Source: an uncultured Gemmiger sp. | GTDB taxonomy: Bacteria; Bacillota; Clostridia; Oscillospirales; Ruminococcaceae | Assembly: GCA_944388215.1 (NCBI GenBank) | Contig: CALXHT010000001.1 | Location: forward strand, 186,001-250,000 | Reading direction: 5' to 3' | DNA length: 64,000 nt | In this document: positions 31,043-35,760 of the stretch, piece after piece | How positions within the stretch are numbered: position 1 is the stretch's first letter | Layout of the letters: every line of letters starts with the position of its first letter | Made by a program: the position numbers and the translations under genes | Notes under the pieces: generated by a model | The model's database searches: none | The model's input: only the letters and a program-made list of their open reading frames with translations | Told to the model about the DNA's origin: nothing

Positions 31043-31071
31043 TTGACAAGGGCGCGGGGATGTGGTAGCAT
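31043..31071 (+). promoter_or_regulatory. Distal promoter upstream of pflB
   Basis: TTGACA (31043-31048), 17-base spacer ending TGTGG, TAGCAT (31066-31071). Confidence 0.7.
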
Positions 31072-31079
31072 ACTTTTGG

Positions 31080-31099
31080 AAGTTAGCTAACGCTAACTT
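31080..31099. promoter_or_regulatory. DtxR/IdeR-like operator at the distal promoter start site
   Basis: AAGTTAGC-TAAC-GCTAACTT, perfect eight-base arms, core GTTAG-N6-CTAAC. The geometry equals that of the repeat at 34465-34484. Resemblance to the DtxR/IdeR box (TTAGGTTAG-CTAACCTAA type) suggests control by iron or manganese; this is inference. Confidence 0.6.
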
Positions 31100-33638: not shown

Positions 33639-34406
33639 ATGTCACAACAAGAATGCAAGGGATACGTCCACTCGGTGGAGACCTTCGGCCTGGTGGACGG
33701 GCCGGGGGTACGGTATATCATCTTTTTGCAGGGCTGCGCCATGCGGTGCCAGTACTGCCACAACCCCGAGACCTGGGCCTTTACCCGGGACACCGAAAAA
33801 ACGCCCCAGGAGGCCTTTGCGGCAGCCCTGCGCTACCGCAACTACTGGCGGGACAACGGCGGCCTGACCATCAGCGGCGGGGAACCGCTGCTCCAGATGG
33901 ATTTTGTCAGCGAGGTGTTCCGCCTGGCCCGCGCCAAGGGCGTCCACACGGCGCTGGACACCAGCGGCCAGCCCTTTGCGCCGGACAATGCCGACTGGAT
34001 GCGCCGGTTTGACGCCATGCTGGAGAACACCAGCCTGGTGATCCTCGATCTCAAGGAGATCGACGACGATAAGCACAAGGCGCTCACCGGCCACACCAAC
34101 CAGAACATTCTGGCCATGGCCCGGTATGTGGCCGACCACGGCGTACCGCTGTGGATCCGCCATGTGCTGGTGCCGGGCCTGACCGATGACGCCGACGGAC
34201 TGCGGCAGCTGGATGCCTTCATCAAGACGCTGCCCACAGTGCGCCGCGTGGAAATTCTGCCCTACCATACCCTGGGCCTGTTCAAGTGGCAGAACCTGGG
34301 CATTCCGTACCCGCTGGACGGCGTGCGGGTGCCCACCGAGGAGGAAGTCCGGACGGCGGAAGACCTTCTGCATGTGCGGGACTACCCCGACGCTCCCCAG
34401 GAATAA
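33639..34406 (+). CDS. pflA: Pyruvate formate-lyase activating enzyme (radical SAM)
   Basis: 255 residues. The radical SAM cluster motif CX3CX2C is C33, C37, C40 (GCAMRCQYCHNP); SGGEPLLQ is the glycine-rich SAM contact. It uses SAM and a [4Fe-4S] cluster to install the glycyl radical on PflB. Length is standard. ATG 33639 follows AAGGAG. It lies 74 bases after pflB and depends on read-through of the hairpin between them, or on a weak local promoter not seen. Confidence 0.96.
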   Translation: MSQQECKGYVHSVETFGLVDGPGVRYIIFLQGCAMRCQYCHNPETWAFTRDTEKTPQEAFAAALRYRNYWRDNGGLTISGGEPLLQMDFVSEVFRLARAKGVHTALDTSGQPFAPDNADWMRRFDAMLENTSLVILDLKEIDDDKHKALTGHTNQNILAMARYVADHGVPLWIRHVLVPGLTDDADGLRQLDAFIKTLPTVRRVEILPYHTLGLFKWQNLGIPYPLDGVRVPTEEEVRTAEDLLHVRDYPDAPQE

Positions 34407-34428: not shown

Positions 34429-34457
34429 TTGACAAATCCCTGGTTTTATGGTAGAGT
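34429..34457 (+). promoter_or_regulatory. Promoter of the candidate small RNA
   Basis: TTGACA (34429-34434), 17-base spacer ending TATGG, TAGAGT (34452-34457). Closely resembles the promoter at 31043-31071. Confidence 0.72.
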
Positions 34458-34464
34458 ATACACG

Positions 34465-34484
34465 TGGTTAGAAATAACTAACCA
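34465..34484. promoter_or_regulatory. DtxR/IdeR-like operator at the small RNA start site
   Basis: TGGTTAG-AAATAA-CTAACCA, perfect seven-base arms, core GTTAG-N6-CTAAC as at 31080-31099. Confidence 0.6.
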
Positions 34485-34596
34485 TAACCAACCTGAAGCC
34501 ACCGGCGCGCCTCTGCCGGACCGGGCTTCTGAACCTTGCGGACCGCGCCTCCGTTTTGGCGTCTTGCTCTGCGCTTTGTAAGCGGTCTGCTGCCAA

Positions 34597-34633
34597 CCCC
34601 ACCGTTTTCTGCTCCGGACGGTGGGGGATTTTT
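34597..34633 (+). terminator. Intrinsic terminator of the candidate small RNA
   Basis: CCCCACCGT / ACGGTGGGG with a 12-base loop, then GGATTTTT. Confidence 0.88.
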
Positions 34634-34644
34634 ATGCCCATACG

Positions 34645-34678
34645 CAAAACGCCCCTGCCGCGCAAACGGCAGGGGCGT
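34645..34678 (-). terminator. Intrinsic terminator of the glycosyltransferase operon
   Basis: Minus strand ACGCCCCTGCCG / CGGCAGGGGCGT, 12 base pairs, then TTTT. It lies just after the stop at 34699. Confidence 0.88.
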
Positions 34679-34698: not shown

Positions 34699-35760
34699 TC
34701 AGCTGCGGCTCAGGCGGCCCAGCAGCAGGTAGTAGCCGGCCCAGTCCAGTTTGCCGTACAGCGGCGAACCGGTGCGCTTGGCTTCCGCCAGGGCATACAC
34801 CAGCCGGGTGCTGCGCCAGCGGCAGGGGAGATAGTAGGCGCTGTAGCAGCGCTCGGCGCGCATCTGGTCCAGCAATGCCCGCAGCCAGGGGGTGCGCAGT
34901 GCGGCGGCGGCCTTGTCCTGGCGGATGCCGGACAGCGGTGCCGGGTCACGGCGCAGGATGTCCGCCACCCCTTCCGCAAAGACCGTCAGTTCGGCGCGGT
35001 GCAGCTGGCGCAGGTCCTCCGCCGGACACCGGGCGGCCTGGCAGGCAGCGTTCAGCTTGGCAAAATGCTGGGGCCAGATCTCGCAGTAGTTGGCGTGGTA
35101 CTTGGTGGACAGCGTGCCGGTGCGGCTGCAATCGTAGAAGGTCAGCGGACTTTCCACCACCCGGTAGGCAAAATCCGGGGTCTCGATGGCCAGCAGGGCG
35201 ATGTAATCCAATACAAATTGTAAATCTTCGCCTAAAGTATACTGTGTGTTGAATTTTACCCGCTGGGCCAGGTCGGTGCGGTAGAGCTTGTTCCAGGGCA
35301 TAGCCAGCAGACAGTCCAGCCAGAGGGAGGCCAGCGCCTGCCGGGGGCGGGGCGAAGCCTCGCTGCTAACGGGGGTTTCATCCTCCTGGCGGGTGGTGTA
35401 GTGCCACAGGATAAAATCCCCGGGGGCGGCGTTCTGGGCGTCCAGAGCGGCCTGCAGGGCGCCGGGGCGCAGCGCATCGTCGGAGTCCAGGAAAACCAGG
35501 AACTCGCTGTCAGCGGCGGCCATCCCCACGTTGCGGGCGCTGGACACACCGCAGTCATCCTGGTGGATGACCTGTACCCGGTCGTCCCGGGCGGCCCAGC
35601 CGTCGCACATAGCGCCGCAGGCATCGGGGCTGCCGTCGTCCACCAATACGCAGCGGACACCGCCCGTCACCTGCTGGGAGAGAATGCTCTGCACACAGCG
35701 GTCGAGGGTGGCCTCGGCGCGGTAGACCGGCACCACAACGCAGATCGCAGCCTGGCTCAT
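34699..35760 (-). CDS. Family 2 glycosyltransferase
   Basis: 353 residues. The GT-A fold signature is at the N-terminus: VVVPVYRAEATLDRC, LVDDGSPD (about 40-47) and VFLDSDDAL (about 88-96, the metal-binding DxD), followed by MPWNKLYR and GEDLQF. Uses a nucleotide sugar on the cytoplasmic face to extend a glycan. C-terminal half is variable. ATG 35760 overlaps the stop of the preceding gene by four bases. Last gene of the operon. A short AT-rich patch (about 35200-35240) lies at its middle. Confidence 0.92.
   Translation of the reverse strand: MSQAAICVVVPVYRAEATLDRCVQSILSQQVTGGVRCVLVDDGSPDACGAMCDGWAARDDRVQVIHQDDCGVSSARNVGMAAADSEFLVFLDSDDALRPGALQAALDAQNAAPGDFILWHYTTRQEDETPVSSEASPRPRQALASLWLDCLLAMPWNKLYRTDLAQRVKFNTQYTLGEDLQFVLDYIALLAIETPDFAYRVVESPLTFYDCSRTGTLSTKYHANYCEIWPQHFAKLNAACQAARCPAEDLRQLHRAELTVFAEGVADILRRDPAPLSGIRQDKAAAALRTPWLRALLDQMRAERCYSAYYLPCRWRSTRLVYALAEAKRTGSPLYGKLDWAGYYLLLGRLSRS

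Follow-up and report, generated by a model that had tools for sequence, protein, structure and literature searches.

Does the DNA behind the pyruvate formate-lyase activating enzyme gene (pflA) of an uncultured Gemmiger species encode a small RNA (sRNA) of its own, and if so what would control it and which messages might it act on? We examined this locus in a window of 64,000 nt, whose positions serve as coordinates throughout, and compared it with a set of 35 genomes of the genus, of which 13 (12 species) carry the predicted sRNA and 22 do not.

The predicted sRNA gene and its surroundings

The pflA gene (33639–34406, + strand) lies directly 5' of the predicted sRNA in each of the 13 carriers. 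It is followed by the full promoter claimed in an earlier sequence-only reading of the region, which we found at 34429–34457 (+ strand) with a TTGACA −35 element (34429–34434), a 17-nt spacer and an extended −10 element (TG at 34449–34450 and TAGAGT at 34452–34457), and which matches 10 of 12 consensus bases. A promoter scan returned two promoter-like sites in the 2.2-kb region compared with 0.4 in shuffled sequences, and every one of the 13 carriers has a comparable TTGACA/extended −10 promoter. The operator-like repeat of the same reading, a perfect 20-base palindrome of the form TGGTTAG-N6-CTAACCA (34465–34484), lies over the predicted start site; it is likewise present in every carrier and is the presumed site of a DtxR-type repressor. 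Repressor sites classically lie at the start site, as this palindrome does. The predicted sRNA of ~170 nt would run from 34465 to 34633 on the + strand, with both ends inferred, and is outlined by its fold, its covariation and a covariance-model match at 34488–34627 (C1:220488–220627 in G000, the window's own genome).

At the 3' end lies an intrinsic terminator (34597–34633, + strand), formed of a stem-loop at 34597–34626 with TCTGCTCC in its loop (34608–34615) and a T run that extends to 34633. Terminator-like sites were not above chance in a plain scan (2 found compared with 1.6 in shuffled sequences), and it is the retention of this terminator among relatives, with compensating changes, that agrees with the strong terminator proposed earlier. 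A second terminator-like hairpin is located just past it at 34649–34678, and the next gene, a glycosyltransferase, lies on the opposite (−) strand (34699–35760). As had been noted from sequence alone, no gene therefore follows on the same strand, and because of this a riboswitch or leader reading was dropped. A small-protein gene was also dropped, as no open reading frame is common to the relatives (12 species), in line with the earlier view that the region holds no credible one. Likewise, the suggested search of Rfam, run with release 15, gave no match above the gathering threshold in the window, where the best sub-threshold match scored 19.5 bits compared with 60, or in two further carrier loci (L274 and L276), and a known Rfam family was rejected.

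Conserved structure and distribution among relatives

The fold of positions 34464–34634 reaches −70 kcal/mol compared with −54.2 ± 3.8 in shuffled sequences (z −4.2), with none of 200 shuffles equally stable. Hairpin 1 (34495–34529, + strand), supported by the fold and by the alignment of relatives, displays CGCCTC in its loop (34508–34513); in relatives this loop is mostly GCCUCU, and it is absent from carriers G004 and G025. Downstream is a conserved domain (34538–34590, + strand) in which a 9-pair stem (34538–34546 with 34582–34590) encloses the single-stranded GCCTCCGTTTT (34547–34557) and an inner hairpin (34558–34575, + strand), whose loop CTTGCTCT (34563–34570) is the proposed seed, with the terminator loop as a proposed second seed. 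The hairpins described in the sequence-only reading are thus stable and conserved, but the fold that is conserved differs somewhat from the MFE structure of this region in the window, which pairs GCGCC with GGCGT, while the relatives favour the 9-pair stem with the inner hairpin.

Covariation was assessed with a model alignment of 12 sequences, which leans to the structure, and with a MAFFT alignment, which is independent and not fitted to it. On the model alignment both sides had changed in 16 of 39 pairs compared with a shuffled mean of 6.5, with 38 covarying cells compared with 9.4 (none of 500 shuffles was as high), and 96% of cells pair; in controls with slid partners only 2–7 pairs were changed on both sides. 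On the MAFFT alignment compensating changes were found in 8 of 35 pairs. The segments GCCUCCG, UGCUCUGC and UCUGCUCC are invariant in all 12 sequences and the stems around them change, with variation also in the 1–2 bases that precede UGCUCU. The earlier proposal had been staked on conserved structure among Gemmiger relatives and on the lack of a conserved open reading frame inside the RNA, and we found the structure and no such frame.

A DNA search gave 11 strong matches in the 35 genus genomes (E 1.5e-19 or better), two of which are the window's own species, and a covariance model built from 10 species matched 14 of the 35 at E ≤ 0.01. The model-added G004 and G025 were accepted, with promoter, palindrome and place behind pflA all present, and a weak match in G021 was rejected as it sits in coding sequence. 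In all 13 carriers the palindrome lies 60–116 nt past the pflA stop codon. No palindrome was found in the stretch around pflA in 11 other genus genomes (in G024 this stretch covers 260 nt downstream), where pflA is more distant (identity ≤68%), and in the last 11 no match to pflA reached the threshold. The carriers form a single clade in a hydrogenase tree that includes 33 of the 35 genomes, with support of 95/95. A family-wide model search, with stricter filters and 10 candidates scored per genome, found the sRNA in the window's own species only (2 of 297 genomes). Of 567 named loci that have a pflA relative, the best 80 were examined and eight have the sRNA, including Gemmiger formicilis ATCC 27749 (L274); L277 also scored, at 16.5 bits (E 0.51), but was discarded as too weak. 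In Pseudoflavonifractor sp. An44 (L278) pflA is 80% alike and an upstream palindrome is present, yet the DNA at the place of the sRNA is different.

The palindrome and its regulon

The palindrome at 34465–34484 is the sole match in the window at up to three mismatches, but since shuffled sequences give about one match at equal looseness (65 of 100 with at least one), it proves little from the window alone and it is its recurrence that carries the weight. The core GTTAG-N6-CTAAC occurs at 198 sites in the 35 genomes compared with 25 for a control pattern read backwards. In G000 the 18-base palindrome occurs once exactly, three times with one mismatch and 15 times with two, a loose count that is noise by itself (19 compared with 26 for the control). 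The seven exact cores in G000, however, all precede the sRNA, iron-related genes or pfl genes: one is before the sRNA; one is before feoA-feoA-feoB, with two near copies alongside; two are before a DUF3793 gene; one is before a small gene that matches no family and has a CydDC-like exporter after it; one is before a gene weakly matching NifU, followed by GGGtGRT; and one is before pflB. The last belongs to a look-alike promoter-operator at 31043–31099 (+ strand), with TTGACA at 31043–31048, TAGCAT at 31066–31071 and the palindrome AAGTTAGCTAACGCTAACTT at 31080–31099, and since this layout is that of the sRNA, pfl itself looks iron-regulated. The palindrome is also found 2.6–4.2 kb before pflA in the eight named sRNA loci, with the pflB that follows it confirmed in the window.

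A single DtxR-family gene was found in G000 (Fe_dep_repr_C model), a genome that is 88.8% complete, so that a second could be missing. This gene is 3.3 kb downstream of the feo palindromes, on the same strand and downstream of feoB, and the operator sequence of the sRNA is thus common to the feoAAB genes that adjoin it, which is what would be expected of a DtxR-type regulon. Of the earlier proposal that a DtxR-type regulator controls an RNA of ~170 nt, the operator part is therefore in good agreement with the gene order, and the RNA itself stands as a prediction. The regulator's best NCBIfam scores are to MntR models, below cut-off; because the operator is common to feoAB, the metal would probably be iron.

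Several other genes lie near such palindromes or near the regulator. Two poorly known families are headed by the palindrome, namely GGGtGRT with its partner gene (L138:1699–3422) and DUF3793 (L136:2059–2607), and the gene after DUF3793 in G004 was judged by eye to be flavodoxin-like. In G008, which is without the sRNA, a palindrome core (L017:1510–1525) lies ~60 nt before an enolase gene, again named by eye. A Fur/PerR-family gene (L135:7751–8122, on C6 of G000) has a rubrerythrin gene and the feo-dtxR cluster as neighbours, and the Fur/PerR-family and DtxR-family regulators may both act in this one region.

Candidate targets and proposed role

Targets were sought in the 13 carriers in two iron enzyme families, hydrogenase and pyruvate:ferredoxin oxidoreductase (PFOR). 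The Shine–Dalgarno (SD) sequence of the monomeric [FeFe] hydrogenase B1 (TIGR04105 family match) reads GGAGCAA in all 13 carriers. In the 70 nt before its start, all 13 carriers have RGAGCAA compared with 3 of 22 non-carriers, and at least two copies are upstream in 10 of 13 compared with 0 of 22, with the one or two extra copies placed upstream of the SD at variable spacing. The GGAG in this leader is an ordinary SD core and is present in non-carriers too, and because the carriers are one clade the contrast may reflect a single evolutionary event; Fisher values for the contrast take no account of kinship. Two copies of RGAGCAA between −45 and +20 were seen in none of 976 sampled genes of carrier G026. 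A second, HndD-like hydrogenase type has no RGAGCAA-type site.

Codons 2–6 of PFOR read CCCAGAGCAAAACAG in nine of the 12 carriers with a readable start (chosen by SD), with one changed base in G007, G014 and G015, and no PFOR was found in carrier G004. The facing sRNA loop is GUUUUGCUCUG in G001, G009 and G022, and only there is the 11-base match to PFOR perfect in both partners. In G000, G003, G025 and G034 (and likewise G026) it is GUCUUGCUCUG, where 8 bases pair with PFOR before a mismatch, and in G002 it is GUUCUGCUCUG, such that outside the three perfect cases a changed base in the sRNA loop or in the PFOR message leaves the pairing imperfect in most carriers. The PFOR SD (AAAAYGGAGG) could pair with the single-stranded CCUCCGUUU, as could many others (rank 162 of 976). 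The leader of a second PFOR in G015 (L140), which differs from the PFOR common to the carriers, contains AGAGCAA.

Inner-loop duplex energies in one genome (G026) placed PFOR at rank 36 and hydrogenase at rank 127 of 976 genes; they single out neither and are weak evidence. RGAGCAA near starts is at background in the G026 sample (15 of 976 genes, compared with 7–23 for four shuffled motifs of like make-up), with no Fe-S enzyme among the 15 by eye, and an unguided scan of 326 G026 genes scored with accessibility showed no iron theme, also by eye. A tandem pattern was not enriched across the genus (33 matches compared with 40 for the control), with 22 compared with 11 in carriers and 11 compared with 29 in the other genomes. 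Of the 22 carrier matches 16 are at gene starts (14 read and two judged by identical matched sequence), made up of 11 before hydrogenase (10 genomes), two before a Mrp/ApbC-like Fe-S carrier, two before QueD-like genes and one before a TSCPD gene; the other six are not at evident starts, with one of them unread. A tandem GGAGCAA before miaB, which encodes an Fe-S enzyme, in non-carrier G013 (L187:1501–1530) counts against specificity. As judged from these sequences, the monomeric [FeFe] hydrogenase is the best target candidate and PFOR a weaker one.

We consider it likely, on this evidence, that the locus encodes an iron-repressed, trans-acting sRNA that would spare iron by pairing with the messages of iron enzymes, hydrogenase and perhaps PFOR. 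The same RNA could still be iron-regulated and act elsewhere, for instance on mrp/apbC Fe-S carrier messages or a protein partner, with the hydrogenase and PFOR matches due to chance, SD-like sequence or codon use. This we hold to be quite possible if short of probable, given the modest energy ranks, the ordinary nature of GGAG, the imperfect PFOR pairing and the tandem sites that individual carriers have before Mrp/ApbC-like, QueD-like and TSCPD genes, although retention of GGAGCAA as the hydrogenase SD in every carrier, together with variably spaced tandem copies in 10 of them, speaks for hydrogenase.

That the hairpins are instead the terminator region of the pflBA mRNA, processed or not, and form a 3' UTR with no gene of its own, we regard as unlikely. 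Their constant place behind pflA is in keeping with it, as are the operator shared with pflB and the absence, in a scan of the window, of any + strand terminator after pflA and ahead of the sRNA promoter, but a promoter and palindrome intervene between pflA and the RNA in all 13 carriers, the loop sequences are conserved beyond the needs of a terminator, and both An44 and the 11 genus genomes with a pflA match lack the RNA. A response to manganese through a regulator of MntR type, which is how RsaC of S. aureus is controlled, is suggested by the regulator's sub-cut-off MntR scores and seems improbable, as the regulator adjoins feoAAB, and the remaining genes of G000 that the palindrome heads suggest iron and Fe-S metabolism. 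We give very little credence to an RNA of dual function with a small protein encoded in it, since the short frames at the locus occur in single species, and no start codon and frame is common to the 12 species when the open reading frame listing is inspected by eye.

For the iron-sparing sRNA, there is good sequence support for the gene, its structure, its conservation, its palindrome and its membership of a DtxR-type regulon. That the gene is transcribed, that the repressor binds, that the metal is iron, that the RNA base-pairs, with which targets, and in which direction it regulates them belong to the mechanism that we infer, which would run as follows. With iron present, the DtxR-type repressor encoded downstream of feoB would bind the start-site palindrome and hold the sRNA gene off. 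When iron is low it would leave the palindrome and an RNA of ~170 nt would be made, in which the operator sequence itself folds into a 5' hairpin, followed by hairpin 1, the long stem with its inner hairpin, and the terminator. Its exposed C/U-rich stretches, GCCUCCGUUU, UUGCUCU and UCUGCUCC, would pair with the G-rich ribosome-binding sites of iron-rich enzyme messages, the monomeric [FeFe] hydrogenase first and perhaps PFOR, which would stop translation and save iron. At low iron feoAAB and pfl would be derepressed through this palindrome too, so that pyruvate formate-lyase could take over pyruvate breakdown from PFOR.

Iron sparing by a block in translation is probably the mode of action, given the anatomy of the predicted sRNA and its likeness in design to IsrR, MrsI, FsrA and RyhB. 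IsrR of staphylococci is described as iron-repressed and Fur-controlled, with an operator kept across the genus and with nitrate-respiration and related enzymes as targets (PMC9410917); it resembles the Gemmiger sRNA in iron repression and in its genus-wide operator, with sequence compared through Rfam only, but is under Fur rather than a presumed DtxR-type repressor. MrsI of mycobacteria, an sRNA of iron starvation whose promoter contains an IdeR (DtxR-family) site, is similar in that site as compared by description, but is actinobacterial, 100–106 nt long, and reported to have a six-base seed and to target hypF and bfrA (PMC8628891). FsrA of Bacillus subtilis and RyhB of E. coli share the iron-sparing logic but are Fur-controlled with other targets, while RsaC of S. 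aureus is, like the predicted RNA, a DtxR-family-controlled sRNA in a Firmicute but answers to manganese through MntR and has another target (PMC9294342). A table in the same 2022 review gives 'none reported' for an sRNA under an iron-sensing DtxR (PMC9294342), an entry that stands although MrsI has an IdeR site (PMC8628891). Among the matches listed in the literature, titles and abstract openings report no such RNA in Gemmiger or near Clostridia, and the main text of two genome-wide RNA-discovery papers makes no mention of Gemmiger, Subdoligranulum or Faecalibacterium (PMC11109978, PMC8632094). The predicted RNA would be a new family of a known functional kind, the iron-sparing sRNAs, to which it is likened in design and not by descent.

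More tentatively, and with doubt outweighing confidence, one iron repressor that reads the palindrome might free a low-iron route (pyruvate formate-lyase, flavodoxin-associated genes and iron uptake) and shut off [FeFe] hydrogenase and PFOR through several anti-SD loops of the sRNA, with iron supply setting formate against hydrogen. If this is true, an RNA would let iron supply tune how much hydrogen and formate a gut commensal produces.
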